Shown here piece by piece: positions 5,519-28,669 of a stretch of DNA of 64,000 nucleotides. The translations under genes and the position numbers were made by a program. Source of the DNA: Thermus sp. CCB_US3_UF1. GTDB lineage: Bacteria > Deinococcota > Deinococci > Deinococcales > Thermaceae. How positions within the stretch are numbered: the stretch's first letter is position 1; each line of letters opens with the position of its first letter. Location of the stretch: assembly GCF_000236585.1 (NCBI RefSeq), contig NC_017278.1, positions 62,001 through 126,000 of the forward strand, in the 5' to 3' direction. Below the pieces are notes generated by a model that did not search any database, was not told the DNA's origin, and saw only the letters and a program-made list of their open reading frames with translations.

Positions 5519-6689
5519 GTACACGTCAAAACGTGGGACCACCCCTTTAGGATGGACCTGCGCCCACGTGGATGGGCAGGTACCCATAGGAGGTGGTCCC
5601 CATGGAACAGCTTACCCCACTCATCAACGCCTTGAAGCGATACTGGAAGGCCGACCTCAGGCGCCTCACCTTCCTGGCCGCCCTGGTGATGGCTCTGGTC
5701 ACCGCCCGCACCACAAGCGGCCCCAGACTCGCTCTTTCCCTCGGCTCCATAGCCAGCCCTGACCCCCGCTCCGCCTACCGAAGGTTCCAGCGGTTCTTGG
5801 CCTGGCCGGGGCTGGACGGGGAGGGCTATGCCCGCTTCATCTTCGCCCTCCTCCGACCCCAAGGGCTCCTCCTGGTCATGGACCGGACCGAGTGGGAGCT
5901 GGGGAAGAGCAAGGTCAACCTCCTGATGCTGGCCTTCCTGTACCAAGGCCTGGCCGTCCCCCTGTTCTGGAGCTTCCTTCCCCACGACGGCAACTCCTCC
6001 ACCCCCGAACGCATCGCCCTGATGGAGAGGGCCTTGGCTTTCCTGAGGGCCCACTTCCCCCACCTCCGGGTGGAGGGGTTCCTGGCGGATCGGGAGTTCA
6101 TAGGGGAGGCGTGGTTCCGGTACCTGGAGGAGAAGGGCATCCCCCGGTGCATCCGAATCAAGGCCAACACCCGGATGTGGCGGTTGGGCTCGGGCCCTCG
6201 GGCCTGGGAGCTCTTTGCCTCCCTGAAGGTGGGAGAGAGCCGGGTGCCCAGGCGGCGGTACTGGGTCTACGGGCGGCGCATGTGGGTGGTGGGGTTGCGC
6301 CTTGGGGTCCGGGAGTGGCTGATTGTGGCTACGGACCTGGACCCTCACCGGGTGCTGGAGGTGTACGGGCTCAGGTGGGGGATAGAGCGGCTCTTTGGGG
6401 CCCTGAAGGGGCGGGGATTTGACCTGGAGGCCACGCACGTGACGCGGGGGGAGAGGCTTTCGCGGCTTTTGGTCCCCTTGAGCCTGGCCTTCGTGTGGGC
6501 GTTTCGGACGGGGCTTGTGCTGCACCGGGTGCGTCCGGTGAGGCCCAAGAAGCACGGGAGGCTGGGACAGAGCCTCTTCCGGGCGGGGCTGGACCTGCTC
6601 ACCCTTTGGGCGCTTGCCCTCTGGGGTGCAGGGGGAGGAAGGCGCGGAAGTCCCTTGGGGTTATGCCCTATGGAGGTTTTGACGTGTAC
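5519..6689 (+). mobile_element. IS4-family insertion sequence, 1171 bp
   Basis: Bounded by perfect 14-bp terminal inverted repeats, GTACACGTCAAAAC at 5519-5532 and its complement at 6676-6689. It contains one transposase gene. I see no convincing target duplication: the left flank ends GCAGCTCA and the right flank begins ATAGAGCC. The two ends may therefore have been separated by later recombination. The right end is only 20 bases from the stop codon of the large helicase, so the element has landed at the very 3' end of the defence operon without breaking it. Confidence 0.88.
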
Positions 6690-6693
6690 ATAG
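5602..6693 (+). CDS. IS4-family DDE transposase
   Basis: About 363 residues with an RNase-H-type DDE core. The first Asp is in LLVMDRTEW, the second in GFLADREFIG, and the Glu is in YGLRWGIERLFGALKGRG, the YREK-like signature of IS4 transposases. I take the ATG at 5602 because AGGAGGT (5588-5594) lies 7 bases upstream; the frame is open to a GTG at 5593. The coding sequence reads through the right inverted repeat. Its stop codon (6691-6693) lies just outside the element, so the last codons depend on the host flank. The protein appears intact. Confidence 0.9.
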   Translation: MEQLTPLINALKRYWKADLRRLTFLAALVMALVTARTTSGPRLALSLGSIASPDPRSAYRRFQRFLAWPGLDGEGYARFIFALLRPQGLLLVMDRTEWELGKSKVNLLMLAFLYQGLAVPLFWSFLPHDGNSSTPERIALMERALAFLRAHFPHLRVEGFLADREFIGEAWFRYLEEKGIPRCIRIKANTRMWRLGSGPRAWELFASLKVGESRVPRRRYWVYGRRMWVVGLRLGVREWLIVATDLDPHRVLEVYGLRWGIERLFGALKGRGFDLEATHVTRGERLSRLLVPLSLAFVWAFRTGLVLHRVRPVRPKKHGRLGQSLFRAGLDLLTLWALALWGAGGGRRGSPLGLCPMEVLTCT

Positions 6694-12256: not shown

Positions 12257-12308
12257 AGCGCTAGTCTAAGCGACAAACCCGGTGAAGGAGGTGCAAATCC
12301 TTCATTGG

Positions 12309-14306
12309 TCATCTTTCAAGCGAGTATGTTTGTCCCATCTCCCGGGGAGGCTGCAGCCGATCCCAGGGCACTTTTTCTTCCACGCTTAAGGGGAGTTTTC
12401 CAGGATGGTATAAGCCCCCTGTGGGCTTGGTGAGCCAGTAAACCTGCTTTAGGGCTTCCTCTAGGGTAAGGTTTCCTTGGATTACCTCTACCCGCAAGGC
12501 GGTAGGCCAGCCAGGGTAGCCAGGGTGGGCCAAGAGGTAAGCCACTTCTGGAGTGGCGCGGAAAAAGGTACCAAGAGGCAGATTTTTCTGGGAGAAACGC
12601 AGGTCCGAGAGTTCCAGGCGAACCACGGGCTCATGTGTCCAGTCCATAACCTCTTCTAGTTGGCGGTCGTTGCCCATGAAGTGCACCACGAAGGCACGAG
12701 GGAGGATTTCCTCTGGCGGAAAACCTTTCCCCTTGCCCAACACGAAACCCTCTGGACCTATCAACCGCCAGAGGAACCCATCCTCTTGGGTAGCCCGAAG
12801 GCCTAGCACATGTTGCCCAAGGTCTTTCAGGGCATAGGGCACAGTGGTACGAAACTTGCCCACCAAGAGGTCATAGGCGAGAGATAGCACCTTGGTGGGA
12901 CTTCCCAAGGTGTCGGGATTAACCACCTGATTCGCAGCTTTGGGGAAGTACTTCTTGAGTTGTTTCAACAGTCGTCCTAGGGCGTATCTCCCCACCTCAG
13001 GGGGGGCCAGGATAAAGTTGACCTCGTTCTCGCCGCTGGACCCAGGGTTTGGACTGCCCTGTATTTCTCCCGTGGTGGGGTCGTAGCGAAGGGAAGGTTG
13101 AGCAACCTGGATGCTGGTTCCGAATTGCTTGAGGGCCTGCACAAGAGAATAGCCATCCTTTGCGTGACCCTTTGCGTGGCCAAACCGCTGCAGGATCTCT
13201 AAGCCTTCCCGGGAGTTTTTCAAGCGATGGGGCTCCACCAGGTGGTAGAGCAACAGATGCCTTGGAGATATGCCCACGGTGACCTTATGCTCCAGGTGCC
13301 CTGACCGCTGAGGGGGCTTTCCCCGGCGCTTGGTTTCCACATGGAAGCTAGGTTTTTTCGTGACCTTTTGGGTAAATGCGACCTCGGGTGTATCGGGCAA
13401 GATGGGACGAAGGCTTATCTTGGAAGGAGCGTACAGGAAACCCTTAAAGCGCACCTCTTTAGGCTCCGCGGCTAGGCCCTTGGCCATACGTAGGCCTAGG
13501 CCCTCTATTCGGCCTAGGACTTCTTCAGAAAGGGCCAAGGGTTCGGGGACCAGGACCTCAGAGAAAAGGGTGATCTTTTCCAGCAAGTGGGCGAAGTTAA
13601 ACTGGCTCCTTTCAAAGGCTTCTTGCGAGGTGCGGCGCATTTGGCCTTGCTCGCCCACCACCCCCAGCTCCTCCAGGTGGACTGGATGGAGAAGCAAGTG
13701 GCCTCGAGGGTCTGCCGTTTCCCAAAAGGTGCGTTTGCCGGTGTGTAAGTCCAGGGCGTGGAGAGGGTGTTTGGGAGCTTGGGCCTCGAGGTAGGTCACC
13801 AGTTCCACGCTAAGGGCTTCCAGGGGAGCGTCGCTCAAAAGCTGCTTGGAGAGGTCTACCAGGGCGTAAAAAGTACCCAAAAGGTTTACCACCTCCACCT
13901 TGTAAGCTTGGTGTTGCCGGACAGGGAAAGCCTTCCCTTGGAAGGGGCCGGAAAGGAAAACCCCTTCAATCCTTGTCCACTCCTCGGGGTCTATCCATCG
14001 GCTGCCTGTGCGGTAAAAGCCCTTTTGGCTTAAAAGGCGGTTGAGGTGGCTGTTGAAGGCCATGGCCCTCTCCTGAAGCGAGGTGGGCTCAGCCTCGCCC
14101 ACGAAGGGGGCTCTTACCTCTGGGCGCTCCAGGGCGAATATCCAGACCTCATCTCCCCGTTTCTGGGCTATCCAGCCTATGGCTTGAAGGTATTTCAGGA
14201 AACTTTGTGGGTCCCTATGGGCAAAGCGAAATATACGGCCTTCCTGAGGGCTACGCTTCAAAGGGAAGAGGTTGACGTAAAGGGTGGACTTGGTAGATGG
14301 GTTCAT
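12309..14306 (-). CDS. Argonaute-like (PIWI-domain) protein, probably catalytically inactive
   Basis: A 665-residue protein whose length and landmarks match long prokaryotic Argonautes such as TtAgo (685 residues). The N-terminus (STLYVNLFPLK) resembles TtAgo's N domain. A MID-like stretch, VNFILAPPE, is followed by ANQVVNPDTL (about 459), as in the guide 5'-end pocket. Then come KVLSLAYDLLVGKF and VPYAL. The C-terminus ends LTLEEALKQVYWLTK with a following LPLSVEE, which parallels TtAgo's PLEALAQQIFHLTR and LPAPLHLAD. Aspartates of the DEDX tetrad appear replaced: VLGLRAT where VGFDAG is expected, VVHFMGN where LLRDGR is expected, and EE for the last Asp. I infer a guide-binding but non-cleaving protein. 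It starts 4 bases after the methyltransferase stop, with AAGGA upstream. The alignment is by eye only. Confidence 0.72.
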   Translation of the reverse strand: MNPSTKSTLYVNLFPLKRSPQEGRIFRFAHRDPQSFLKYLQAIGWIAQKRGDEVWIFALERPEVRAPFVGEAEPTSLQERAMAFNSHLNRLLSQKGFYRTGSRWIDPEEWTRIEGVFLSGPFQGKAFPVRQHQAYKVEVVNLLGTFYALVDLSKQLLSDAPLEALSVELVTYLEAQAPKHPLHALDLHTGKRTFWETADPRGHLLLHPVHLEELGVVGEQGQMRRTSQEAFERSQFNFAHLLEKITLFSEVLVPEPLALSEEVLGRIEGLGLRMAKGLAAEPKEVRFKGFLYAPSKISLRPILPDTPEVAFTQKVTKKPSFHVETKRRGKPPQRSGHLEHKVTVGISPRHLLLYHLVEPHRLKNSREGLEILQRFGHAKGHAKDGYSLVQALKQFGTSIQVAQPSLRYDPTTGEIQGSPNPGSSGENEVNFILAPPEVGRYALGRLLKQLKKYFPKAANQVVNPDTLGSPTKVLSLAYDLLVGKFRTTVPYALKDLGQHVLGLRATQEDGFLWRLIGPEGFVLGKGKGFPPEEILPRAFVVHFMGNDRQLEEVMDWTHEPVVRLELSDLRFSQKNLPLGTFFRATPEVAYLLAHPGYPGWPTALRVEVIQGNLTLEEALKQVYWLTKPTGGLYHPGKLPLSVEEKVPWDRLQPPREMGQTYSLER

Positions 14307-14310
14307 GGCT

Positions 14311-17300
14311 CTATCCTTTCGTGTGAAGCTTGGTCCAGGCCTCTAGGACCAGCCTCCGGGTGCGGTACTCCCCGTAGCGCTTTTCCTCCTTGTCCCGAAG
14401 CACGCGGAAGGTTTCCCCAGGGAAAGAGCTTCTTTCCCGCCGCTTGCGGTATTCCCTCTCGTCCAGGGGGTCCGCCACCTCCTCAATGTCCGAAAGGATA
14501 TCTGCAAGCTCCTTTGGGGTAAGGTCCTGGGGGTCCAGGATGTAGCGGAGCTGCTTGCGGTTTAGGCCATAGAGCCTAGCGTAATAGGCGTCCAGCTCGG
14601 CCCGGAGAAGGGCCCGGCGCCCCTCGTCAAAGCGGAAAGGGGGGAAGGGGTAGGGGCCCTGGACCCAGGGAGGGGGCGCGTCGGGGTGGCCCCCGTTGGC
14701 CTGGTGCTGGGCCAGGAGGGCCTGGCGCAGCTCCGGGCTGGCCTCCTGCCAGACCTCCTGGGCCAGGGGGGCCAGGTCCCAAGCGGTGTAGGTGAGCTCC
14801 AGGACCCGAGGGACGATGAAGAGGAGGTCCTGGGGTCCGTAGGTGGAGGGGGGGAGGACGGGGAACTGCTTCAGCAGGTGGAAGGTAAGGTGTGTCCCAC
14901 CTACTTTTTGGCGAGCAAGGAAGTCCAGAACCAAGTTGTTGAAGGAACTAAGCAAGGCAAGTTGGAGGACAGCTGAATAGGTGCTTTGAATAAGGGGGAC
15001 CGTATGGCCCACTGCTATTCTGGGTATAAACGAGAAAATAACGGTTCGTTCATTAGTAGCGTTGGTGACATCCCTAAACCCCAACAACCACCCCCTCCCC
15101 CACCGCCACGCCTCCTTGCCCCGCTGCCCCCGCCCCTCGAGGCGCCCCTCCACCTCCTCGGCCCGGACCCAGTAGCGGGGCAGGGGGAGGTAAGCAGGGT
15201 CCTGGTGCTCCCCAAGGGTGGTTTCCCGGGTGTCCTCCCCGTCGTAGGTGGCGAAGCGGTGGTCGTAGTGCCAGATGAGCTTGGCCTCGTAGAGGGGCAG
15301 GTAGATCTCCTTCCCCCGCAGGAAGCGGTTGCCCTCCAGGTGGAAGCCCTGGGCCTCGAGGTCGGCCCGGGTGTGGAAGAGGTGGGAGTCGCTGGTCATG
15401 TTGAAAAGCCCCTGGCGGAAGCGTACATTCCAGGGGTTCTCCTCCGGCTCCTCCCGCCAGAGTACGGGCACCTTCTCGTAGATGGCCCGGGTGAGCTCGG
15501 CGTCCTGGCGGGTGCGGAAGACGGGGCAGGTCCTGGTGTTGGGGTTGAGGAGGGCGAAGTCCCGGGGTGCAAGGCGGAACTGGCGCACAGGGTCCTGGGC
15601 CTGGTCGGGCTGGGTGAGGAAGAAGGCCAGGCGGGCGGGTTCCGGGGAAGGGGGGCGGAGGGCGAGGACGGCGAACTTGATGCGGCTGTCTATGCCCGGG
15701 AAGAGCCTCTCCCGATTCTCAAAGTCCAGGAGGGTGGATACCTCCCCCTTTTCCACCAGGTGGGCGAAGAACTCCTTGTTGGAGTCGTCGGTGGCGATGC
15801 CCGTGGGCACGATGAGCCCCACCCGCCCCCGTGGGGAACGGAGGCGGTAGGCCAGCTCGGCGAAATACCGGTAGGTGTTGGCGTCTCCTTTGCTCGTAAG
15901 GGGGAAGCGGTTGGAGTTACGTGCAAACTGGACGGTTGTGCTGATGGAGCGGATATGTTCTTTCCACTTTTCAAAGAGATCGGGGTCTGTTTGTGAAAGC
16001 TTTTCTATGGTCTCCTTACGCTTTTTTCCTGGGAGGGCGGCAATATGGGGAGCTCTTTCAGCAAAGAATTCCTCTTCTTTAGGCTCCATAACCTCCCACG
16101 GCGGGTTCCCAAGGACCACATCAAACCCACCCGCCCTGAAGACCTCGGGGAACTCCAGCCACCAGTGGAAGAAGCGGTGCCGGCGCTTGGCTACCTGGAT
16201 GGCGGCCAGGGTAGGTGGGTTCAGGTAGGAACTTTGGCCAAGTTGCTCCAAAGAAGCCCGGCTTTGTTGCGCAAGCCAGTTGAGCCCTTCGGCGTCGGGA
16301 AGGCGCACCCCAGGAGCTGGGCGAAGGAAGAAGGCGGCTGTCCAGTAGTCGGCGAAAAGCTCCATCTTACGCACTTCCTCGCTTTCGCGCCACGCCTGGT
16401 AGCGGCGCCGCTTTTCCTCCACCTGCTCGGCGCTTTCCTCTTCAAAGTCCAGGAAGGGTGGGCTGGGGGGCGCGAAAAGCAGGGTGCCCCCTCCGGGTCC
16501 GAAGCGCAGGGACTTGCGCACCTCTTTGGGAATGTCCTCCCGGTCGTAAGCCTCTTTGGGTATACCCTTCTCCAGGAAGTCCTGGGGGGCGCCTACCAAG
16601 GAGTTGCCCACCTTTAGGTGGTGGTCTAGGAAGGAAAGGGGTTTGCTCCTATCCGCCGAGGCCACCCATAGGGAAAGTTTGGCCAGCTCCACGGCCATGG
16701 GGTTGAGGTCCACGCCATAAAGGCAACGGGTAGCCACCAGGTGGCGGGCGGCGTAAAGGGCTTCTGGGTCGCCCTTAGACTGACCCCTCACCTCCAGTAG
16801 CTTTTCCGCCAGGTACTCCAGGGCCGAGATGAGGAAAGCCCCGGAACCCATGGCCGGATCCACTACCTTGATGGACAGGATGGCCTCTTCCTGGCGCTCA
16901 GGGTCATCCCCCGCTGCTTTCAGCCTCTCTTCCACCACGGGGGCCAGGGCCTCCTGCACCACAAGCTGGACCAGCTCCCGGGGAGTGTAGTAACTTCCCG
17001 AAAGCTTTTTATCCAGAAGGTGGCTTTCCAGGGAGTACCGCCCTTCCACCAAACGGGGAGTTAGGGCAAGGATGCCCTCGTAGACGTGGCCGATTTCCTC
17101 CACCTCGAGGTCCCGGTAGTTGATGCGCTCCAGGGCTCCCTCCCGTTCCAAGTGGGTTAGGTGGCGGATGGCCCGCAGGAGCTGGCTGTTGGTGGGGCGC
17201 GGAAGCTCGGGAAAGCGCGCCCGCTCCCCCGGATTGGACACCCCACCCGTGAGGATGCGAAGGTTTTCCGGGGCAAAGAGCTCCCCGTTGAGGGCCGGCA

Positions 17301-18309
17301 CCCCCAAGCGGGCGTCCCCCCGGTAGACCAAGTGGAAGGTGAGCAGGAGCTTTTCCCAAAGGTCCGTGTTCCGGTCTTCCCCGTAGGGGTTATCCCGGGC
17401 CGCCCGCTCCCTCAAGGCGGAGATGCTGTACTCCCGTTCGTAAACCCAAGAAAGCTCGCCCCCGGTGGGGATAAGGCCCCGGCTTTCGGCGTAAAGCAGG
17501 AAGAGGATGCGGTACACCAGGCGCAACAGCTCGGCATGGTAGGCCGCAAGCCTCTCCGGATCGTTTAGCTCTTGCCGCAGGGACTCGTTCAGGAAGGCGT
17601 TGCCCAGGATCTCCAGGGCCTCCACCACTCCCTTGCGCAAAGCGTCCCGGGCCCGGATACCCGTCTGCCGGGCCGTCTCATAGTAACGCTCCAGGGGAGT
17701 CTTCCCGTCCTTACCCTTCTGGAAGCGGCTTGGCGATAGGAGGAGCAAGAGGATTTGAAACTCCCGCAAAGCCTGCTCACGCGGCGCCTCAAAAAGCTCC
17801 ACCAAGTTGAAGGCCACGTATCCAGGCAGGGATACATGGTAATACTTGCGAAGGAGCCGCACCTCCCAGGGGGCTGCCACCACACCCCAGTCCTGGTGGG
17901 GGTGGGCGTTTAGGTAGCCCTGGACCAAGCCTTGGGGGCTTTTTTCCCGGCGGTTGGGTCGTAGGTCCAGCTCCCCCGCCACCAGATGAAGGGGGGGGGC
18001 TTCTTCCCCATCCCATCCCCGGTGGCTTATGGGGAAGGCCTGCTCACCCACCACCAGATGGCTCCGGTTGTACACGGGCTGGAAGCCCAGGGCGCGGAAA
18101 AGGGGAAGGAGCCAGGATTCCCGGGCCCGGGAGGTATCCCTTAGTTCATAAAGGGGCTTGTGGCGCTCGTAAAGGTTAAGGAGGAGGTAGAAGCGGTTTC
18201 GCAGCTCCTCCGGGGTTAGGGAAAGTTCCTTTAGGGCCTCAGGATGGCCCAAGGTTTGCAAAAACTCCTCGGTGAAAATCCCACCGGAAAGGCGAATGGC
18301 ATGGAACAT
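14311..18309 (-). CDS. PglX/DrmMI-like N6-adenine DNA methyltransferase
   Basis: A 1332-residue class I methyltransferase of the Eco57I/PglX kind (COG1002). SGSYYTPRELV lies near 440, the SAM-binding motif DPAMGSGAF near 486, GVDLNPMAVELAK near 530, and the catalytic motif NPPWE near 734. Target-recognition sequence probably follows, and the C-terminus is a charged helical region. Such proteins modify host DNA in BREX and class 1 DISARM. Here it pairs with the DrmD-like helicase upstream (11-base gap, AAGGAGG before the ATG) and the Argonaute-like gene downstream (4-base gap), so translation is probably coupled. Near codon 105 the gene carries a run of nine identical bases, a candidate switch point. 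It appears intact in this copy. Confidence 0.88.
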   Translation of the reverse strand: MFHAIRLSGGIFTEEFLQTLGHPEALKELSLTPEELRNRFYLLLNLYERHKPLYELRDTSRARESWLLPLFRALGFQPVYNRSHLVVGEQAFPISHRGWDGEEAPPLHLVAGELDLRPNRREKSPQGLVQGYLNAHPHQDWGVVAAPWEVRLLRKYYHVSLPGYVAFNLVELFEAPREQALREFQILLLLLSPSRFQKGKDGKTPLERYYETARQTGIRARDALRKGVVEALEILGNAFLNESLRQELNDPERLAAYHAELLRLVYRILFLLYAESRGLIPTGGELSWVYEREYSISALRERAARDNPYGEDRNTDLWEKLLLTFHLVYRGDARLGVPALNGELFAPENLRILTGGVSNPGERARFPELPRPTNSQLLRAIRHLTHLEREGALERINYRDLEVEEIGHVYEGILALTPRLVEGRYSLESHLLDKKLSGSYYTPRELVQLVVQEALAPVVEERLKAAGDDPERQEEAILSIKVVDPAMGSGAFLISALEYLAEKLLEVRGQSKGDPEALYAARHLVATRCLYGVDLNPMAVELAKLSLWVASADRSKPLSFLDHHLKVGNSLVGAPQDFLEKGIPKEAYDREDIPKEVRKSLRFGPGGGTLLFAPPSPPFLDFEEESAEQVEEKRRRYQAWRESEEVRKMELFADYWTAAFFLRPAPGVRLPDAEGLNWLAQQSRASLEQLGQSSYLNPPTLAAIQVAKRRHRFFHWWLEFPEVFRAGGFDVVLGNPPWEVMEPKEEEFFAERAPHIAALPGKKRKETIEKLSQTDPDLFEKWKEHIRSISTTVQFARNSNRFPLTSKGDANTYRYFAELAYRLRSPRGRVGLIVPTGIATDDSNKEFFAHLVEKGEVSTLLDFENRERLFPGIDSRIKFAVLALRPPSPEPARLAFFLTQPDQAQDPVRQFRLAPRDFALLNPNTRTCPVFRTRQDAELTRAIYEKVPVLWREEPEENPWNVRFRQGLFNMTSDSHLFHTRADLEAQGFHLEGNRFLRGKEIYLPLYEAKLIWHYDHRFATYDGEDTRETTLGEHQDPAYLPLPRYWVRAEEVEGRLEGRGQRGKEAWRWGRGWLLGFRDVTNATNERTVIFSFIPRIAVGHTVPLIQSTYSAVLQLALLSSFNNLVLDFLARQKVGGTHLTFHLLKQFPVLPPSTYGPQDLLFIVPRVLELTYTAWDLAPLAQEVWQEASPELRQALLAQHQANGGHPDAPPPWVQGPYPFPPFRFDEGRRALLRAELDAYYARLYGLNRKQLRYILDPQDLTPKELADILSDIEEVADPLDEREYRKRRERSSFPGETFRVLRDKEEKRYGEYRTRRLVLEAWTKLHTKG
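17991..17999. repeat. Nine-base G/C homopolymer inside the methyltransferase gene
   Basis: Nine consecutive G on the plus strand, encoding Ala-Pro-Pro on the minus strand in frame. Adding or losing one base would truncate the methyltransferase near residue 105 of 1332. Confidence 0.9.
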
Positions 18310-18320
18310 GCGCCACCTCC

Positions 18321-21077
18321 TTAGCGCAAGGCTGCTGGGGCCAACAGGGTGATGGCCAAAAGCTCGTGCCCCAGAAGCTCCAACCGGTCTAGCTCGCGAA
18401 AGGCTTCGGGAAGCGTTCCGTAGGCGCGCTCCAAGTCTCGTTTGAGGGCTTCCCGTTCCGCTTTCAGACGGGCTAGGGCCTCCTCGGCTCCCCGGCGGCC
18501 TAGGGCCTCGAGGGGGGTTCGCAAGGCATCCGCCGCCAACAGTTGGGCCTGCTCCCGGCTAAGGGCCGGCGCTGCCTTTAGGCGGGCTCGCCAGAGGGCT
18601 TCGGCCTCCTTGGGTGGCACCTCGGCGCCATCCAAAAGGCGAAGGGCGCGCCGGTAGAGGGTTTCCAGTACCTCACCCCCGGGGCCCAAAAACCGGGCCC
18701 GGAAATGGTAAAAGGCTACAGGTGGCGTGCCCAAAGGCGCCCGCAAGGCCAGAAGAGCGGTCCGCGCCCCGTCCAAATCCCGGTAGGCCCGGTAGCGTAG
18801 GTAAGACACCAGGTGCTCCACCAAGGGGTGGGATAGGTCCAGCACCTCCACCCCTAGGGGAGCCTCCGGGTCAAAGCTAAAGGGTCCGAACCTAGCCGGA
18901 AGGCCAGGCACGGCCTCTCCTGCATCCCGCTCGGCGGTGTAGGGGTCCTCTCCCCAAACGCGCCAGCCCAGGTAGCGGAGGCCGTCCAGGACAAACCCTT
19001 CCAGGGCCTTGGGGTTTCCTGCCCGCTCCAAGGCTTGCTGCAGACGCTTTTCCACGTCCGGCAGGCTAAACTCACTATGCCCGTAAAAGCCTTCCTGGAC
19101 TGCGCGCCTGGCCCCTTCCAGCTCCCGGTCCTCCACCTCGGCAAAGAGGGAGGCTTGTAGACGGCGCTCCTGCCGCCAGTCTTGCTTCCAGAGGGCCTCG
19201 AGGCGCTCCCTCAAGTAGGCTTCCTCTCCGAAGAAGGCCGGGACCACCCCAAGTTCCCGCCGAATCCGCTCGGCCTTCTCCAAAAGCAAGTGGAAAACCG
19301 CCACGTCAAAGGATTGCTCGTAGTAAAAAGTACGGATCCGCACCCTTGGTTCGGGCTGGCCGAAGCGGTCAATGCGGCCATTGCGCTGCTCAAGGCGGTT
19401 GGGGTTCCAAGGAAGGTCGTAATGGATGAGCTGGGCGGCGTAGTGTTGCAGGTTGAGCCCTTCGGAAAACACATCGGTGGCTATAAGAAGGGCAGGGCTT
19501 TCCTGAGCAAAGGCCTTTAGCACCTCATCCCGGTCCTCCTCGCTCATCTCCCCATGCACGGCAAAGACGGGATAGGGCAGGTTCGGGCCCAGCTTCTCCA
19601 CCAGGTACTCCAGGGTATCGCGGTAGCGGGTAAAGAGTAAGGTCCGCCCTTTACCGAAAAGGAAAGGTTGGGTGAGCAGATCCCGAAGCCTTTCCAGCTT
19701 GCTATCCTTACGCCATCCTTTTAGGTATCGGAGAAGTGTCTCCAAATAGCCCTTTTCCGCTTGGGCGCGGGCCCGGTCGGCCAGGCTGAGCTCGAGGCCC
19801 ACCTCTGCTTCCTCGGGCAAAAGTCGGTCTGGGGTTGTGTCAAAAAGGGCGGCCTCCTCTTCCCCTGTGATCCCTTGCCCTTCGGTAAGGAGATTTTCCA
19901 AAAGGCCCTTGCGGCGCTCCAGGCTTCTTTCCAGCGCCCGAGGGGAACTGGTGGCCCGGCGCATGAGGTGCATGGCCAGCCAGCGACCGAGCACCGGAAC
20001 CTTGGCGGGGTCCGGATCGTACACCTCGGCCTGGTAGCGGCGCACCGCCTCAAAAAGCTCCAGTTCCGCCCGGTTTGGGTTCACGGCCTCTTCCTTGGTC
20101 TCCCGTTCGGGGAAGGGGCTTTTTTTCCCTTCTTTGCGGAACCACTCCTCCACATCCTTCCTGCGCCGCTGCACCACGTGCTTTTTGGCCACCTCTCGGT
20201 CCAACGTCCCGTTTTTAAAAAGCCCTAGGCCCAAGGCATCCAAGTGCTCTAGAAGGCTATAAAAGCTTTCGGTGTAACCATTGTGGGGCGTGGCCGTGAG
20301 GAGAAGCAGATGGGGTACCCGGCGGGCCAGTTCCCGCACCAAACGGTAGCGTTCCATCTGCTTACCCTTCTCCGTGGGCGGGCGGGCGGCCATGTGGGCC
20401 TCGTCCACCAAAAGCAGGTCAAAATCTTGCAAAAGCACCAGCTGCCGCACATCGCCCTGCTTGGCGTAGTCCACGCTGGCAATGATGCGGTCAAAGTGTG
20501 CCCAGGGATTGGCCCCCGGCGGAAGGGTTCGGGCCAGCCGTTTGAGATTGGGGCCGGAAAGCACCGCGAAGTCCAAGTGGAAGAAGCGCCGCAAGGCCTC
20601 CTGCCATTGGCCGAGCAAGTGGGCAGGGGCCAGGATCAACACCCGGCGCGCCTTGTTGCGCAAAAGGAGTTCCTTGATGATAAGGCCCGCTTCCACGGTC
20701 TTGCCAAGGCCCACGTCGTCGGCGATGAGGAGGCGCACCTTGGGCTGCCGCAAGGCCATGAGAAGCGGCACAAGCTGGTAGTTGGCAGGGACCACCCGGG
20801 AGCGTTGCAGGGCTAGGAAGGGCGCATCGGCGTGGAGCGTGGCCAGGTCCAGGGCCTGGAGGAGGAGATCGTGCAGCGCCGGGTCCCCTGGCCGCTCAGG
20901 GGGGAGGCCCAGGGTGGTCAGCTCCAAGGCCTCTCCCTCCAGGGGTAGATAGAAAAGGGTTTCCTCCTCGGAGTCCACCGTCCTGGCCACAAGCACATCT
21001 CCCTGCCGCCGCTCTAAGCGGAAATCACGGCCTCGGGCGCGAAAAAGGGCCCCGGGTTGGAGCATGTCCACGTTCAT
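18321..21077 (-). CDS. DrmD-like SNF2-family helicase
   Basis: A 918-residue HepA/SNF2 ATPase (COG0553). Walker A is ADDVGLGKTVEAG (about 125), the DEAH box is in LLVDEAHMAARPP (about 226), LLLTATPHNG is motif III, and QRNGRIDRFGQ is motif VI (about 567). The C-terminal third is a charged helical region with no other domain I recognise. In class 1 DISARM this type of helicase is DrmD and is followed by the adenine methyltransferase DrmMI, exactly as here. AGGAGG lies before the ATG. It is the first gene of the core four-gene defence unit and lies 44 bases downstream of an unknown gene on the same strand. Confidence 0.88.
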   Translation of the reverse strand: MNVDMLQPGALFRARGRDFRLERRQGDVLVARTVDSEEETLFYLPLEGEALELTTLGLPPERPGDPALHDLLLQALDLATLHADAPFLALQRSRVVPANYQLVPLLMALRQPKVRLLIADDVGLGKTVEAGLIIKELLLRNKARRVLILAPAHLLGQWQEALRRFFHLDFAVLSGPNLKRLARTLPPGANPWAHFDRIIASVDYAKQGDVRQLVLLQDFDLLLVDEAHMAARPPTEKGKQMERYRLVRELARRVPHLLLLTATPHNGYTESFYSLLEHLDALGLGLFKNGTLDREVAKKHVVQRRRKDVEEWFRKEGKKSPFPERETKEEAVNPNRAELELFEAVRRYQAEVYDPDPAKVPVLGRWLAMHLMRRATSSPRALERSLERRKGLLENLLTEGQGITGEEEAALFDTTPDRLLPEEAEVGLELSLADRARAQAEKGYLETLLRYLKGWRKDSKLERLRDLLTQPFLFGKGRTLLFTRYRDTLEYLVEKLGPNLPYPVFAVHGEMSEEDRDEVLKAFAQESPALLIATDVFSEGLNLQHYAAQLIHYDLPWNPNRLEQRNGRIDRFGQPEPRVRIRTFYYEQSFDVAVFHLLLEKAERIRRELGVVPAFFGEEAYLRERLEALWKQDWRQERRLQASLFAEVEDRELEGARRAVQEGFYGHSEFSLPDVEKRLQQALERAGNPKALEGFVLDGLRYLGWRVWGEDPYTAERDAGEAVPGLPARFGPFSFDPEAPLGVEVLDLSHPLVEHLVSYLRYRAYRDLDGARTALLALRAPLGTPPVAFYHFRARFLGPGGEVLETLYRRALRLLDGAEVPPKEAEALWRARLKAAPALSREQAQLLAADALRTPLEALGRRGAEEALARLKAEREALKRDLERAYGTLPEAFRELDRLELLGHELLAITLLAPAALR

Positions 21078-21941: not shown

Positions 21942-22211
21942 TCATTCCTCAGGTCCCAGCTCATACTCCCCCGTGTAGGGGTTCTGCCGAGGCTCCCAGC
22001 CCTCGGGGACGGCCTCGTAGCGCCCCGTATAGGGGTTCCACCGGTCCACCAGCCCCTCCCCCCGCTTGCGGTAGCGGCGGGTAAAGGGGGTGTAGTCCGT
22101 CTCCCGCTGCCTCCCGAACTCGTACCCCCCCTCGTACTCGTTCTGCACCGGCTCCTGGTCCTTCTCGGCGTACTCGTACCTCCCCGTGTAGGGGTTGTAC
22201 CGGATGGGCAT
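21942..22211 (-). CDS. Small Tyr/Pro-rich repeat protein (NPYTGRYE repeats)
   Basis: About 89 residues with three near-identical motifs: YNPYTGRYEYA near the start, WNPYTGRYEAV in the middle and QNPYTGEYEL near the end. Glutamate-, arginine- and glutamine-rich spacers separate them. The protein is strongly aromatic and charged and has no hydrophobic core segment, so it is probably extended or disordered. I choose the ATG at 22211, with AGGAGG about 6 bases upstream. It lies 16 bases after the YbjN-like gene and overlaps the next unknown frame only if that gene uses its earlier start. The function is unknown; the repeat pattern suggests a multivalent binding tail, for RNA or protein. Confidence 0.7.
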   Translation of the reverse strand: MPIRYNPYTGRYEYAEKDQEPVQNEYEGGYEFGRQRETDYTPFTRRYRKRGEGLVDRWNPYTGRYEAVPEGWEPRQNPYTGEYELGPEE

Positions 22212-22227
22212 CCCCCCCACCTCCTCC

Positions 22228-22686
22228 CTACCCCAAAAGGCCCAGCGTCCTAAACAGGTCTTCCAGATCGTCCCCGCCCTCTATCCAGAGGAGAAACTGG
22301 CCAATCCCCGAAAAGGCGGTGGCCAGGAAGTTGCGGAGCTGGGCCTCGGTAACCCCCTCTTCCAGGTCCACATGGTAGTCCAACAAGAGCTCCCCTCCCC
22401 TGACCAAGGCCCGGGGCCAGCGCCTGGTCCCGTTCCACTCGTTGGCCTTGGCCAGGAGCTCCTCGGGCTCCATGGGCGGATGCCCCTTCACCAGGGCGAT
22501 GACGGCCAGGACCTGGTTCGCCGAACCCTGAGGGGCCACGTTCACCAGGGCCATGGGGTTGGCCGAGGGGTCCTTCTTGAAAAGGACCAGGAACTCACCG
22601 TCCTCGTTCACAAGCACCTTGAGCCCCATGGCCTTCAAAGCCCTGCCGATGCGCTCCGCCGTAAGGGGTTCCACGGGTTGGACCAT
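22228..22686 (-). CDS. YbjN-domain protein
   Basis: A 152-residue cytosolic protein with the YbjN/type III secretion chaperone-like fold. LTAERIGRALKAMG is the first helix, LVNEDGEFLVLF the strand pair, and ALVNVAPQGSANQVLAVIALVKG and LLLDYHVDLEEGVTEAQLRNFLATAF the second half. Proteins of this family act as regulators or chaperones; the specific role is unknown. It starts 3 bases after the Rsr stop with GGGAGGTGAGG upstream, so it is certainly co-transcribed with Rsr and may serve it as a partner. Confidence 0.75.
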   Translation of the reverse strand: MVQPVEPLTAERIGRALKAMGLKVLVNEDGEFLVLFKKDPSANPMALVNVAPQGSANQVLAVIALVKGHPPMEPEELLAKANEWNGTRRWPRALVRGGELLLDYHVDLEEGVTEAQLRNFLATAFSGIGQFLLWIEGGDDLEDLFRTLGLLG

Positions 22687-22689
22687 GCC

Positions 22690-24180
22690 TCACCTCCCTT
22701 GTCCTTCCCCTTCTTCCTCTTCCTCCGCCAAGGAAGCCTCGGATACCCTGGCCCTGAGGTGGGCCTTAGGGTCCTGGGCCTCCAGAACCGCCAGGAGCTC
22801 CAAAAGCCGCCCTGAGAACCCCGCCACCCGGCTCACCCCGCCCTCGGGAAAGGCCAGGGGGCCGTAGCCCGCCACGTTCACCACGTGGGCCACCCGGGAA
22901 GGGTCCTCCCCCAGCCAGCGGCGCAAGGGGGTGTAGGCGTCGTCGGCCACCTGCTCGTCGGTGAGGATGACCACCCGTGGGCCTGGGAAGGCGGGGAGGG
23001 TCCTCCTGAGGGCCTCACCCAGGTAGGTTCCACCGCCGCCTGCTTCCAGGAGGTGGCGCACCATCTGGCCCAGGGGGGCATCCGGCCCGTAGGGGAGGGG
23101 GATGGTGTGGCGGTCAAAGCCGTAGAGCTGGCCCCCCGTGGCCCGGTAGAGCAGGGCCCCCAGGGAGGCCGCGGCCAGGGCGTAGGTGGCCTGGCTCCGG
23201 GCGCTTAGGGGTTGGTACATGGACCCGGAAACGTCCACCAGGACCAGGCTCTCCCCCTGGAAGGGCAGGGAGGGAAGGGAGGCTTCCAGGGCCCCTTCCA
23301 GGGCGGAAAGGACCGCCTGGGGATACCCCAGCTCCTCCCCCTGCAGGAGGGCCTGGAGCCACTGGTAGGGGAAGAGCCCCCAACGGGCCACCCTGGGGTC
23401 CCCCAGGCGCTGGGCCAACCACGCCTGGACCCCGGGGTCCTCCAGGAGGCCGTGGCGGTGGAGGTTGTTGAGGTTGCGCACCAGGGCCAGGCCCGAGAGG
23501 TGGGGCAGGGCCTCCCGCCAGGCCTCGGGGGTGCTCCCCTTCCGGGAGAGGATCCTCTCCCAGGTGGGGCGTTCCGCCAAAAGGGTTTCCACCAAGGCCC
23601 GGGCCTCGGGCTGGGCCTCCCGGCCCCGCACCAGCCACTCGTAGACCAGGGCGTGCTCCCGGTCAGGGGCCTTGGGGTGGCAGAGGATCAGGGCGTCCCG
23701 CTGGCGAAAGCCCCGCCCCTCCCAGCGGTACTTGAGGAGGGCCTGGGGACTCATGGCGTTGAGGCGCTGGGCCACGGCCCGCTTCAGGGCCTTGCGGATC
23801 CTCCACCCCTGGGCCCTGGTGTAGGCCAGGGTTTCCAGGTGCTCATCCCCGCGAAGCCATACCCTCTGGGCTGCCCCCTCGGCCACCTCCACCGGCCCCC
23901 ACCAGAAAAGGTGGGCCACCAGGGCGCTGGGACCCGAGCGCAGGCCCAGGACCTGACGGGCATAGGTGGCCAACAGGGCCACGAACTCCGGGTCCTGCTG
24001 GGTGACCTCCGCGGCCAGGGCGGTGAAGCGGGCCTCCCGCTCCTCCGCCCCTTCGTAAAAGAGGTCGCCGGAAAAGAGGCTGCCGGCCACGAGGAGGAGG
24101 AGCTCCCCTTGGGGGCTTGCGGGGAACCCCCTGCCGCCCTGGTGGGTGGGGTGGACACGTGGCCCTGGGTTGAGGGGCAT
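22690..24180 (-). CDS. rsr: Rsr, Ro60-like TROVE/vWA RNA-binding protein
   Basis: A 496-residue bacterial Ro60 orthologue. The N-terminal TROVE module is a HEAT-like helical ring that binds Y RNA and misfolded RNA ends. It contains LFYEGAEEREARFTALAAEV, YARQVLGLRSGPSAL, NAMSPQALLKYRW and LVRNLNNLHRHGL. From about residue 300 follows a von Willebrand A domain with the MIDAS motif LVDVSGSMYQPL and a later TDEQVADD. In Deinococcus, Rsr with Y RNA associates with exoribonucleases during stress and rRNA maturation. The start ATG has AGGAGG 6 bases upstream, preceded by two small hairpins in the leader. It is the first gene of the minus-strand run leading into the defence genes. Confidence 0.87.
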   Translation of the reverse strand: MPLNPGPRVHPTHQGGRGFPASPQGELLLLVAGSLFSGDLFYEGAEEREARFTALAAEVTQQDPEFVALLATYARQVLGLRSGPSALVAHLFWWGPVEVAEGAAQRVWLRGDEHLETLAYTRAQGWRIRKALKRAVAQRLNAMSPQALLKYRWEGRGFRQRDALILCHPKAPDREHALVYEWLVRGREAQPEARALVETLLAERPTWERILSRKGSTPEAWREALPHLSGLALVRNLNNLHRHGLLEDPGVQAWLAQRLGDPRVARWGLFPYQWLQALLQGEELGYPQAVLSALEGALEASLPSLPFQGESLVLVDVSGSMYQPLSARSQATYALAAASLGALLYRATGGQLYGFDRHTIPLPYGPDAPLGQMVRHLLEAGGGGTYLGEALRRTLPAFPGPRVVILTDEQVADDAYTPLRRWLGEDPSRVAHVVNVAGYGPLAFPEGGVSRVAGFSGRLLELLAVLEAQDPKAHLRARVSEASLAEEEEEGEGQGR

Positions 24181-24389: not shown

Positions 24390-24580
24390 CCGCGCCGCCG
24401 GGCAAGAAGAGAACCTACCACACCCCAAGCTTTCTTGCAAGAGGCCCTGGAAAGGCAAAGGGGAAAAGTGGCCTCCTACAGACATTTTTGCGAATGGGTA
24501 TAGCGTGGACGTGCGTCCCCACTGGGGGCAGCAGTCCGTTCTTCCCCACAACTCGCCTTGGCCAAGACTTGGAACCTCCG

Positions 24581-25836
24581 GTCGTGTAAGGATTTATGTG
24601 TAAGGGTCCGTGTTTAATAGGGGGGCACACCTTAGCACGAGGAGGTGCCCCGTGGACCAGGATACCTTGCGGATCTTGCTGAGGGAAGCGGTGCGGGAGA
24701 CAGTAGCCGAGGTTCTGCAGACGGTTCTGGAGCTGGACCGGACGGCCTTCTTGCAGGTGCACGGAGGCCGCAGGAACGGCTACTACCCCCGCAAGCTGGA
24801 GACCACCTTCGGCCAGGTGGACCTGAAGGTCCCTAGGGATCGGGAATCTCGGTATTACCCGGCTTTCCTTAAGCCCTACGTCCGCCGCCTGGTGGACGTG
24901 GGGGAAGTGGCGGTAGCCCTTTACGCCGCCGGGGTCAGTCAGCGCAAGGCGGCCGAGATACTGAGCCTGCTCTTAGGCCACCGCTACTCCCACGAGACCC
25001 TGAGCGCCCTGACGGACGAGGTCCTGGAGGCGGCAGGAGCCTTCCGCACCCGGCCTTTGCCCGAGGAGATGGCCTTCGTCTACCTGGACGGGCTTTCCCT
25101 AAAGGTCTTCAGGGAAGGAGAAGGGATCGTACGGGAAAGCGTGTATGTGGCCCTGGGCATCGCCCCTAATGGGGAGAGGCGGGTCCTGGGGTTTTGGCTG
25201 TTGCCCACGGAGAGCGCCCTGGGATGGGAGGGGGTCCTGGGGGAGCTTTGGCAGCGGGGCCTGCGGCGGGTATTGCTCTTCATCACCGACGGGCTGCCCG
25301 GGCTTCCTGAAGCGATCCGCAGGGTCTACCCTCAGGCGGAATGGCAGCGGTGCGTGGTGCACGGGGTGCGGTGGAGCCTGTCCCAGGTGCGGGCGCGGGA
25401 CCGGGGCCTGCTGGCGGAGGACCTGAGGCGGGTGTACGGGGCGGAGAGCCGGGAAGAAGCTCTTGGGGCCTTGGAGGAGGTGAAGGCCGCCTGGGGTTCG
25501 CGGTACCCGGGGGTGGTGGGGCTTTGGGTACAGGATTCGGGGGCCTTCCTGCGGTTCTACGGGTACCCCAAGGTGCTTTGGCCGTACCTGCGGAGCACCA
25601 ACCTGATGGAGCGGTTTATCCGGGAAGTGCGGCGGGGGACGAAGGTGCGGGACCACAAGTTTCCTAAGGAAGAGGCGGTGTACAAGCTTCTTTACCTGGA
25701 GTCGGAGAGGCAGGAAGGGAGGTGGGCAGAACGGAAACTAAAGGGGTTCTCGGAGGTGAAGGAGGTGCTGGAGAAGATGCTTCAGGAGCGGTATGCCCCC
25801 CGTACACAGACTCTTACACATAACTCTTGACACGAC
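24581..25836 (+). mobile_element. IS256-family insertion sequence, 1256 bp
   Basis: The ends at 24581-24612 and 25805-25836 are imperfect 32-bp inverted repeats that match at 27 positions. Both begin GTCGTGT and contain TTATGTGTAAG. One mutator-type transposase lies inside. No clear 8-bp target duplication is visible: the flanks are AACCTCCG on the left and CCTGGGGG on the right. The element separates the rsr/defence operon from the CRISPR array and lies only 141 bases from the first CRISPR repeat. Confidence 0.88.
24652..25830 (+). CDS. IS256-family (mutator) transposase
   Basis: About 392 residues with the IS256/mutator DDE layout: the first Asp in FVYLDGLSLKVF, the second in LLFITDGLPGLPEA with the CVVHGVRWSL block after it, and the Glu region in LRSTNLMERFIREVRRGTKVRDHKFP. 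The frame is open to 24610, but GAGGAGGTG lies 5 bases before the GTG at 24652, giving a start MDQDTLRILLREAV. The coding sequence ends inside the right inverted repeat. No frameshift is visible, so the element may be active. Confidence 0.9.
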   Translation: MDQDTLRILLREAVRETVAEVLQTVLELDRTAFLQVHGGRRNGYYPRKLETTFGQVDLKVPRDRESRYYPAFLKPYVRRLVDVGEVAVALYAAGVSQRKAAEILSLLLGHRYSHETLSALTDEVLEAAGAFRTRPLPEEMAFVYLDGLSLKVFREGEGIVRESVYVALGIAPNGERRVLGFWLLPTESALGWEGVLGELWQRGLRRVLLFITDGLPGLPEAIRRVYPQAEWQRCVVHGVRWSLSQVRARDRGLLAEDLRRVYGAESREEALGALEEVKAAWGSRYPGVVGLWVQDSGAFLRFYGYPKVLWPYLRSTNLMERFIREVRRGTKVRDHKFPKEEAVYKLLYLESERQEGRWAERKLKGFSEVKEVLEKMLQERYAPRTQTLTHNS

Positions 25837-25977
25837 CCTGGGGGCGCGTCCGGCTAATGGCCGGAGGGGTTCTTGAAAAGGGTGCTCTTCGAAGCCCTGC
25901 CCTAGGGGACATGGCAATTTTGCCTTTCTCAAGGCTTAGCGGGGGTAAACCGAGGGTTTTTGCTGTGTAGATCATCT

Positions 25978-26187
25978 GTAGTCCCCACGCACGTGGGGAT
26001 GGACCGTTCCGTGCCGCCTCCCATATCTCTCCCGCCTTGTAGTCCCCACGCACGTGGGGATGGACCGGCATCTTTCGCGAACATGGGCGGCGCCCCCCGT
26101 AGTCCCCACGCACGTGGGGATGGACCCGGGAGGGCCTCGTTCAAAACTTCCCTCCCCTCGTAGTCCCCACGCACGTGGGGATGGACC
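25978..26187 (+). CRISPR. Short CRISPR array, four type I-E-like repeats
   Basis: Four identical 28-bp repeats start at 25978, 26039, 26099 and 26160. They begin GTAGTCCCCACG, contain the palindrome CCCCACG/CGTGGGG and end GATGGACC. The three spacers are 33, 32 and 33 bases (26006-26038, 26067-26098, 26127-26159). The repeat layout matches Thermus type I-E arrays and sets the direction as plus, with the leader on the 25837-25977 side. Absence of any decay in the last repeat suggests a young or trimmed array. No cas gene is present in the window, so the array would depend on Cas proteins encoded elsewhere. Confidence 0.93.
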
Positions 26188-26549: not shown

Positions 26550-28415
26550 CTAGCCCCAGACCCTACGCCACCAGGGCCTTCCTTCCCCAATGGCTTCCAG
26601 GAACTCCCGCTTTTTGAGAAGGAAAGCCTGCCCGTTCCCGCTGAAGCCGTTGTCGAAGGCCTGAAGAGGTACCAGGAAGCCAGCCTTCTCCTTATCCACC
26701 ACGAAGCAGGGGATCGGCCTTCCCGTGGCGATGTCTGGGGCCTGGATTTCCCGGAAGATCTCCCTCTGTGTGTGGTACAGGTTCCGCCAGCGGGCGAGGA
26801 GGTGGGCCCGGTAGTCCCCCTTAGGACCCTCCGGAACGGAAAGCCCCATCCCCCGGAGGAAGCGCCGGGCAGGAGCCAAGGGGTCGTTCCCCTGCAAGAG
26901 GGAGGCCAGCTCGTCGGAGGTGGGAAAGGCCTCCTGCAGGAAGCGGAGGAAAAGGTCAGGGCGGATGGCCTTGAGGTGATCTTCTAGATCAGCGGAGCCC
27001 ATCCCTTGGGGGAGGTGCTCGAAGGGGATGAACCAGGCCCGCCGCAGGATCTGCTCTTCGCTTCGGAAATGCTCCAGATTGGAGGTGAGGATCAGGGCCC
27101 GTCGTACCCCAGGGTCATCCCCTACCCCCTTTACCACCTGGGCCAGGCGGTTCTCCTCGGTGAGGTGCCGCGGCGGCACCTCGTCGATGGGCAAGGGGGC
27201 CCTCTCCTCTAGGTAGAGGTGGGCCTCCACGGTAGCCCCCTTGCTCCGGCCCGTCTCTTCTACCTGCCGATAGTGGCGAAAGGAAATGCCCCACGTAGCA
27301 GCGATGGCCCGGAGAATGGTGGTCTTGCCCGCTCCTGCCCGGCCCACCAAGAGGGCCACGATGGGGAAGCGGGTGGGGCTGCGCCCCTGCCGCCCTGCTT
27401 CCTCGCGCAGGAGGGGCAGGTAGGAGGAAGCGAAGCCGTACACTAGGGCTTCTCCTACGGCTTCGGCAAGGGAAGGGGAACCCCTCCTCGCTCCCTCCAG
27501 GAGGGCAGAAAGGGCCCGCAGGGTGGCCTCTACCCCCTGGGGGTCGGGGGAGAGGTCTTTGGCCAGGAGGCCTCGGTAGCGGGGTCCATCCGGAGCATAC
27601 TCCAGCACGGGCACCTCCCTCAGGGCCCGCTCCACGAGACTTTGCAGGTAGGTCTCCTTGCCCCTCAAGCGGACGAGGTCCTCCGCTTTCCGCATCTCCC
27701 AGGTAAGCTCCTTCAGCGCCCTAAGCTCCGCTTCCTTTTCCCGCTCCGTCCGGTCCACCAGGGGCTTATGGGGGAGGAGGTTCACCACTACGATCCCCTT
27801 GGCCTCGGCCACCGCCCGCCTAACCTCCTCGGGGGGGAGGGCTGTGGGCATGAGGAGGAGGCTCTTCCCCTCCAAGCGTTTCCGCTCCCGCTCACCTAGG
27901 AGAGGCCTAGCCCGCTCCCTCTCCCCCTCGTACCAAGAAAGAAAGGCCTGGTAGACCTCGAGGCGGTCGGAAAAAGCGGCGATCTCCCCCTGGACCCCAC
28001 TCCAAGCGCTCTGGGAAAGGTTGAGGCTACCGAGGATCGTCCGCACCCCCTTGGGGCCTTCCAGGAGATAGAGCTTGGCGTGGCTATTGGGGAGGAAGCG
28101 CACCTCGAGGCGCCGCTTGGTCCCCATGAGGACCAGGAGGCTTTGGGCCTCCTCCCACAGGGCGGCCAGAGCGCTTGCTGCAGCGTGCCCTTCCTCCAGG
28201 CCAAGGAGGAGTTCCACCTCCTCCAGGGGGGCAAGGAGCTCGGCCAGCCCCTTGAGGCTGGCGGAGAAGGAGATGGCCCGAAGCTTCGTGTACCCCAGGA
28301 GGAGCTCCATTGGGGAGCACTCCAGGGCACGCCCCTCGTCCAGGGAAAAGACAATCCCCAGCCGCTCCCTGAGGGGTTCGGAGAAAAGGGGGGTTGAGGG
28401 CATTTCCCGATCCAC
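26550..28415 (-). CDS. Phospholipase-D-like nuclease fused to a P-loop ATPase
   Basis: A 621-residue two-domain protein. The N-terminal third has a PLD/HKD signature, NSHAKLYLLEG followed by ILGSLNLSQSAWSG (about residues 108-135), as in PLD-family nucleases. Only one HKD copy is visible, so it would work as a dimer. After a charged linker, residues 350-480 form an ATPase: Walker A VGRAGAGKTT, a Walker B-like PLPIDEVP, and LILTSNLEHF like a sensor. Single-gene nuclease-ATPase fusions beside CRISPR and helicase islands are often antiphage. A TATAAT at 28424-28429 lies 8 bases before the GTG at 28415, which suggests a leaderless mRNA; an ATG at 28403 is the alternative. I do not recognise a named family. 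Confidence 0.75.
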   Translation of the reverse strand: MDREMPSTPLFSEPLRERLGIVFSLDEGRALECSPMELLLGYTKLRAISFSASLKGLAELLAPLEEVELLLGLEEGHAAASALAALWEEAQSLLVLMGTKRRLEVRFLPNSHAKLYLLEGPKGVRTILGSLNLSQSAWSGVQGEIAAFSDRLEVYQAFLSWYEGERERARPLLGERERKRLEGKSLLLMPTALPPEEVRRAVAEAKGIVVVNLLPHKPLVDRTEREKEAELRALKELTWEMRKAEDLVRLRGKETYLQSLVERALREVPVLEYAPDGPRYRGLLAKDLSPDPQGVEATLRALSALLEGARRGSPSLAEAVGEALVYGFASSYLPLLREEAGRQGRSPTRFPIVALLVGRAGAGKTTILRAIAATWGISFRHYRQVEETGRSKGATVEAHLYLEERAPLPIDEVPPRHLTEENRLAQVVKGVGDDPGVRRALILTSNLEHFRSEEQILRRAWFIPFEHLPQGMGSADLEDHLKAIRPDLFLRFLQEAFPTSDELASLLQGNDPLAPARRFLRGMGLSVPEGPKGDYRAHLLARWRNLYHTQREIFREIQAPDIATGRPIPCFVVDKEKAGFLVPLQAFDNGFSGNGQAFLLKKREFLEAIGEGRPWWRRVWG

Positions 28416-28669
28416 TTGGAACCATTATACTAAAAACGCCTCGAGCACCCCTTCAAGAGGGAATAAAGGGGAAGGTGGCCGACGGTGGTAGGCAAGGGAA
28501 AGGGCCACCGTCCTTCCGCCGGTAGATGGGGGGAAGCATCAAGGGCCCATTGCCCCTTTCGCAGATGCACGCTAGGCCAATTTCCTACTCCGAACAATTT
28601 GGATGCAGCCACACAGGATTTGCAGCAGGAATCTGTTCTTCCTTTTGGGTATTCCCTTACAATAAAGGC

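Follow-up and report, generated by a model that had tools for sequence, protein, structure and literature searches.

A putative Argonaute-free AgaP-family protein of Thermus, joining a single-HKD PLD nuclease to an SF3-like AAA+ ATPase module in one chain

The window, as the whole 64,000-nucleotide stretch of DNA analysed here is called, contains on its minus strand a gene whose product we take, at a rough probability of 0.62, to be an AgaP-family protein from a bacterium, free of Argonaute, in which a single-HKD PLD nuclease is joined to an SF3-like AAA+ ATPase, and which would act on its own as an ATP-dependent nuclease directed at extrachromosomal DNA. AgaP is the Argonaute-associated PLD nuclease of the haloarchaeal APAP (pAgo-AgaP) systems described in 2024 (PMC11442185). 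The open reading frame of 621 residues that an earlier note had drawn at 26550-28415 proved to be real, and the combination of one HKD motif (H112xK114 and G129SxN132) with a Walker-type ATPase (Walker A 358-365, Walker B 407-412) in a single protein was likewise confirmed. The gene and its parts are located as follows.

26550..28415, minus strand: PLD-ATPase (AgaP-like) gene, 621 codons, 621 aa, GTG start; alternative ATG at codon 5 (28401-28403)
27900..28346, minus strand: N-terminal PLD/HKD nuclease domain, residues ~24-172 (structure matches Z 12.7-8.7; profile E=2.3e-25)
28020..28082, minus strand: HKD catalytic motif H112xK114 ... G129SxN132 (conservation, 23 homologues)
26976..27560, minus strand: putative SF3-like AAA+ ATPase module, residues ~286-480 (profile-profile comparisons)
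27321..27344, minus strand: Walker A, G358RAGAGKT365 (family alignment)
27180..27197, minus strand: Walker B, P407LPIDE412 (family alignment)
27078..27089, minus strand: sensor or SF3 motif C-like L443TSN446, TSN being residues 444-446 (family alignment)
27039..27041, minus strand: Arg459, arginine-finger candidate (invariant, 23/23)
26559..26975, minus strand: conserved C-terminal module, residues ~481-619 (retained in the internally deleted copies of Meiothermus luteus and Thermus G007)
28424..28429, minus strand: TATAAT, -10-like hexamer, 8 nt upstream of the GTG

The nuclease part carries a single HKD-type motif (H112-A-K114-(x4)-E119, followed by G129-S130-L-N132) in which Glu replaces the usual Asp and the HxK-GSxN spacing is 17, and the one Walker A of the protein is canonical. 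Comparison with the full-length orthologue of Thermus composti (64% identity) gave an overall dN/dS of 0.32, with values of 0.29 for the PLD part, 0.61 for the linker, 0.23 for the ATPase and 0.29 for the C-terminal part. From these values, both catalytic parts are kept under purifying selection, the ATPase most strictly, and the gene is more than a chance reading frame. In the full-length alignment of 23 members, H112, G129, S130, N132, G363, K364, P407, R459, P569 and the start Met are invariant, and K114, L133 and G358 are conserved in 22; invariance in the family is nearly confined to the two active sites. Against this background it is very improbable that the gene is a decaying relic with no present function, as its many frameshifted, deleted or IS-split relatives might suggest, since the window copy is full length, has every catalytic residue in place as well as a -10-like element, and its dN/dS against the T. 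composti orthologue is well below 1. The position of the TATAAT hexamer would suit a possible leaderless start; a sigma-70 scan upstream of the gene found no full promoter and no -35 element.

The assignment to the AgaP family is based on profile comparisons. Alignments of the Thermus group (A1) and of 11 haloarchaeal AgaP-like proteins (A4), built separately, matched in hhalign over 494 columns (99.3%, E=2.5e-20), with the parts in the same order. When one joint alignment was split into its bacterial and haloarchaeal rows, the resulting profiles also matched half by half, the PLD halves over 141 columns (E=2.3e-25) and the ATPase and C-terminal parts over 342 columns (E=4e-33). The weight is placed on these comparisons because some of the tblastn steps by which relatives were reached were weak (E ~1e-3 to 1e-6), and they argue strongly for homology with AgaP that is co-linear across both halves. 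The experimentally tested NpAgaP of Natrinema pellirubrum can be recognised as the open reading frame L055:5001-7154, because its catalytic residues (H105, K107, G157, S158 and N160) fall at the positions reported (PMC11442185); this frame, which is split in the annotation of the plasmid record, also carries G447ESNGGK453. The window protein has the features of the AgaP family, namely HxK and GSxN in a PLD domain at the N-terminus, and full-length, co-linear homology to the haloarchaeal proteins. As in AgaP, a P-loop ATPase-like module comes after the single-HKD PLD domain, and a conserved C-terminal module after that. A named relative with such a domain order, of which the earlier note recognised none, thus does exist, although its ATPase half went unrecognised in the AgaP paper.

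Several differences with respect to AgaP were observed. The window gene has no adjoining pAgo, identity is ~20%, the Walker A ends in the canonical GKT instead of the GKG or GKD of the haloarchaeal copies, and the HxK-GSxN spacing is short and canonical, in contrast with the split motif of NpAgaP. Two features of APAP systems are thus absent, an ago gene in an operon with agaP and the split motif with ~50 residues between HxK and GSxN. The latter is an insert limited to the NpAgaP subclade in the 23-member alignment, the ordinary spacing being present in three Ago-adjacent haloarchaeal copies and in every bacterial copy aligned. Since bacterial and haloarchaeal members share only ~15-23% identity, function may have shifted between them. 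At Walker A, GK[S/T] is present in all bacterial copies and is replaced by GKG or GKD in all the haloarchaeal ones aligned, so that AgaP itself may not depend on ATP hydrolysis. The words 'ATPase', 'Walker' and 'AAA' do not occur in the main text of the AgaP paper (PMC11442185), so that the ATPase half is a feature of AgaP that the paper leaves unmentioned.

A closer look at the nuclease half was obtained from an AlphaFold model built on four sequences (pLDDT 52 overall, ~40-80 in the PLD region), which folds this half only; a single-sequence model reached a pLDDT of 37. Residues ~24-172 of the model match SauUSI (Z 12.7), NucT (12.0), Nuc (11.7), NgoAVII R (11.4), Zucchini (~10) and BfiI (8.7), so that the PLD fold resembles those of nucleases, the ATP-dependent restriction enzyme SauUSI among them. 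Single-sequence profile searches, such as the earlier note had proposed for each half, agree with the PLD assignment through weak matches (Pfam PLDc_2, E=0.005; RE_NgoFVII in 9 of 10 relatives); for the ATPase half they returned assorted generic P-loop models at ~346-376. The PLD-type restriction enzymes BfiI, NgoAVII R and SauUSI, which share the PLD nuclease fold and of which SauUSI is likewise ATP-dependent, rely on a DNA-reading domain of the B3-like kind or on an SF2 helicase, whereas the window protein has an SF3-like AAA+ module, no recognisable target-reading domain and no methylase partner. Tdp1 structures are also among the fold matches and some haloarchaeal members are annotated as tyrosyl-DNA phosphodiesterases, which would point to a DNA-repair enzyme of the Tdp1 kind; such a role is hardly credible for a patchy, mobile and often broken family with one HKD motif instead of two, when Tdp1 has no ATPase and NpAgaP is toxic and plasmid-curing.

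The ATPase half would, judging from sequence profiles only, be an SF3-like AAA+ module. In hhalign, SF3/DUF5906-type proteins matched the family profile at 90-92% over 121-142 columns that span Walker A, Walker B, motif C and the arginine, whereas the match of an ABC ATPase control was confined to the P-loop (22-25 columns) and SF2 helicases, used as a second control, gave no match (0.6%). Walker A, Walker B, TSN and Arg459 follow each other in the order that the matched SF3/DUF5906-type proteins also show. Profile searches of the PDB with this half gave general P-loop and AAA+ matches only, and most of it has a pLDDT <40 in AlphaFold.

Comparison with other defence systems left AgaP as the closer relative. 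No full-length family for the window protein was found by profile searches in NCBIfam, PADLOC or PHROGs, the libraries matching fragments only. The DISARM component DrmC, to which the earlier note had compared the protein, and ZacB of Azaca are also PLD-type components of defence systems, but neither an ATPase fusion nor partner genes were seen. The DrmC profile did not match the window protein, and that of ZacB matched weakly (E=0.0012) over only 33 residues around the HKD motif, with the partners ZacA and ZacC absent beside the gene. BrxL-HKD of type 1 BREX likewise unites an AAA+ ATPase and an HKD DNase in one protein, but in the reverse order (an MCM-type ATPase, then a C-terminal HKD) and within a BREX operon (PMC12839542); no BREX profile matched the window protein. 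Membership of DISARM DrmC, Azaca ZacB, PtuA or BREX was rejected, as only P-loop or HKD-motif fragments match.

The family is sparsely distributed. Matches were found in four genomes of the genus Thermus and in 6 of 111 genomes of the phylum, and a contig scan by short patterns found only T. composti and M. luteus. Beyond the phylum, the first tblastn round reached plasmids of Aquifex, Acetobacter, Komagataeibacter and Limosilactobacillus, and the following rounds Arcobacter, Athalassotoga, Ligilactobacillus, Lactobacillus and ~19 haloarchaeal plasmids; this spread is a lower bound, genomes outside the phylum having been reached through plasmid records only. The bacterial relatives, mostly plasmid-borne, belong to at least six phyla and are single genes, often broken. 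Thus, the copy on Aquifex ece1 has two frameshifts, those of T. oshimai JL-2 and K. xylinus are interrupted by transposases, that of T. thermophilus JL-18 breaks off after residue 262 next to a transposase, that of Thermus G007 has an internal deletion and a frameshift, and copy 1 of K. oboediens has a shifted C-terminus. In L. salivarius the copy of LPM01 is split and that of strain 2D is intact. The M. luteus copy has lost the whole ATPase by an in-frame deletion. Any single break could be a sequencing error, and the pattern is as expected for a costly or toxic gene. The remaining PLD and C-terminal protein of M. luteus (L018:9208-10383) lies beside a DNA-methyltransferase-like gene and could be either a functional short form or a remnant.

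Another reading has to be weighed here, in which the protein would be a plasmid-competition or addiction nuclease, mainly a weapon or stabiliser that plasmids use against other replicons and that the Thermus chromosome has captured. Nearly all distant relatives are plasmid-borne, several of them near rep or par genes (the Arcobacter copy lies 250 bp from parA, that of L. salivarius near rep and those of Komagataeibacter near repA and a relaxase), and some stand among toxin-antitoxin genes. However, the plasmid collection was the only broad set searched by protein, which biases this estimate of habitat, there is no consistent antitoxin partner, and the window copy is chromosomal, so that we consider this reading unlikely. 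A viral habitat was also rejected: five scans of viral contigs yielded one distant relative only, broken by several frameshifts and stops, tblastn against 50,697 phage records gave no match and PHROGs nothing useful.

The relation to Argonaute differs between haloarchaea and bacteria. A pAgo (Piwi) gene directly precedes the homologue in Natrinema zhouii, Salinigranum, Natrarchaeobaculum and Halomontanus, and in Salinirubellus and N. pellirubrum the homologue lies just beyond the Piwi gene. Piwi genes share the replicon in seven haloarchaeal plasmid records and are beside or close to the homologue in six of them (6/12 haloarchaeal copies), whereas a same-replicon search found none on the 13 records with a bacterial copy; there is none within the 64-kb window either. 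In the family tree, whose deep branches are weakly supported, Ago-adjacency has changed at least 3-4 times within the haloarchaea, where it is scattered, and no bacterial member shows it. The link between PLD nucleases and pAgo was reported in haloarchaea and as absent from other microbial genomes (PMC11442185), and the main text of the 2009 pAgo survey makes no mention of PLD (PMC2743648). In three haloarchaeal plasmids (L038, L051 and L052) the AgaP is a very close relative of NpAgaP and the replicon lacks a pAgo; the usual position of pAgo is occupied by an oppositely oriented gene of 375 aa, which has a weak match to a DNA polymerase B exonuclease in L051 and could be a substitute partner.

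The source genome does encode one pAgo, a TtAgo-like long-A protein of 661 aa (G000:C2:242691-244673) some 152 kb from the window gene, with an apparently intact DEDD tetrad. The open frame in which it lies runs for 1121 codons, well past the pAgo-like part, and its Pfam Piwi score is below the cut-off. This unlinked pAgo might recruit and restrain the window protein in trans, as NpAgo does with NpAgaP, the toxicity of which is suppressed by its pAgo (PMC11442185). Such an arrangement seems improbable in view of the distribution of both genes: the Thermus pAgo query, which finds pAgo in 8 of 27 Thermus genomes, found none in T. composti (G015) or in G016, both with intact PLD-ATPase genes, six of the eight pAgo-bearing genomes have no PLD-ATPase gene, G007 combines a pAgo with a broken copy, and the bacterial records are, as noted, devoid of Piwi. 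Dependence on pAgo in Thermus was therefore rejected, carriage of the PLD-ATPase gene not tracking that of pAgo. The description of the gene as 'stand-alone' in the earlier note is in keeping with the four Thermus copies, which lie in four different neighbourhoods, and with the two Thermus genomes that have an intact copy and no pAgo.

Returning to the reading preferred here, the autonomy, substrate and motor role of the window protein are what we infer. The protein probably forms a multimer, because in single-HKD PLD nucleases each active site is built from two chains, as in the dimeric Nuc and BfiI with a single HKD motif in each chain, and because AAA+/SF3 ATPases work as rings. The multimer would load on, or track along, extrachromosomal or replicating DNA (plasmid or phage), and ATP turnover would bring the PLD domains together or free them for cutting. 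In bacteria the ATPase half may take over the holding and the target selection that pAgo performs in haloarchaea. Loss of the incoming plasmid or phage DNA would be the usual result. The price, toxicity on any failure of control, would account for the numerous broken copies. NpAgaP alone is toxic through its HKD residues and restrained by NpAgo; together with its pAgo, and again through the HKD residues, it is required for plasmid loss and strengthens immunity against a ssDNA virus with no abortive infection (PMC11442185). The autonomy of the bacterial proteins is not assured, because NpAgaP by itself is toxic and the APAP pair conferred no immunity in E. coli (PMC11442185). It may tentatively be proposed, at somewhat less than even odds, that the AgaP proteins are fundamentally autonomous, ATP-driven motor nucleases (PLD plus SF3-like AAA+) which, carried by plasmids through bacteria and archaea, recognise extrachromosomal or replicating DNA and destroy it with no guide, and that the haloarchaea coupled them to Argonaute only later, as a refinement.

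An orphan protein is now tied to an experimentally tested immune nuclease, and the AgaP-type family is not limited to haloarchaea or to Argonaute loci. The existence of an Argonaute-free relative suggests that such a nuclease can fight foreign DNA in the absence of an Argonaute guide. How APAP distinguishes plasmid from chromosome was left open (PMC11442185), and the answer may lie in the ATPase half. A thermophilic homologue may also bypass the failed expression of the salt-adapted proteins.

A defence role would fit the protein by analogy with AgaP, the nearest experimentally studied relative, which restricts plasmids and aids against virus through its HKD residues; an ARMADA/DISARM-like operon also lies 5.5 kb away, with DrmD- and DrmMI-like genes and a DruE-like helicase. 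In gene content this four-gene operon (6710-21077) resembles an ARMADA-type defence system (PMC12458937).

18321-21077, minus strand: DrmD/BrxHII-like SNF2 helicase
14311-18309, minus strand: DrmMI/PglX-like methyltransferase
12309-14306, minus strand: 665-aa protein with no assigned role
6710-12256, minus strand: DruE/YprA-like helicase

The CRISPR array and IS that had been noticed beside the gene are both present, a four-repeat array at 25978-26187, 362 bp from the 3' end of the open reading frame, and beyond it an IS256/Mutator-type element at 24580-25837. The four Thermus copies have no neighbour in common, that of T. composti lying downstream of a 137-aa glycerol-kinase-like fragment; no consistent partner gene was seen near the bacterial copies in the neighbourhoods compared, and a search with the flank for an empty insertion site gave scattered matches only. 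A tyrosine recombinase/phage integrase (20-1225, minus strand) lies at the edge of the island, and an IS4-type transposase at 5593-6693. A Ro60/TROVE-vWA homologue (Rsr-like, 22690-24180, minus strand, a distant match only) is followed by a YbjN-family gene (22228-22686) and by a short protein in which NPYTG motifs recur (21942-22220). Among the relatives, the PLD-ATPase gene of a Halobaculum plasmid (L024 8229-14996) adjoins Mre11/Rad50/NurA/HerA-like genes, and that of Aquifex ece1 (L019 5335-6954) adjoins a split HerA/DUF87-like gene.
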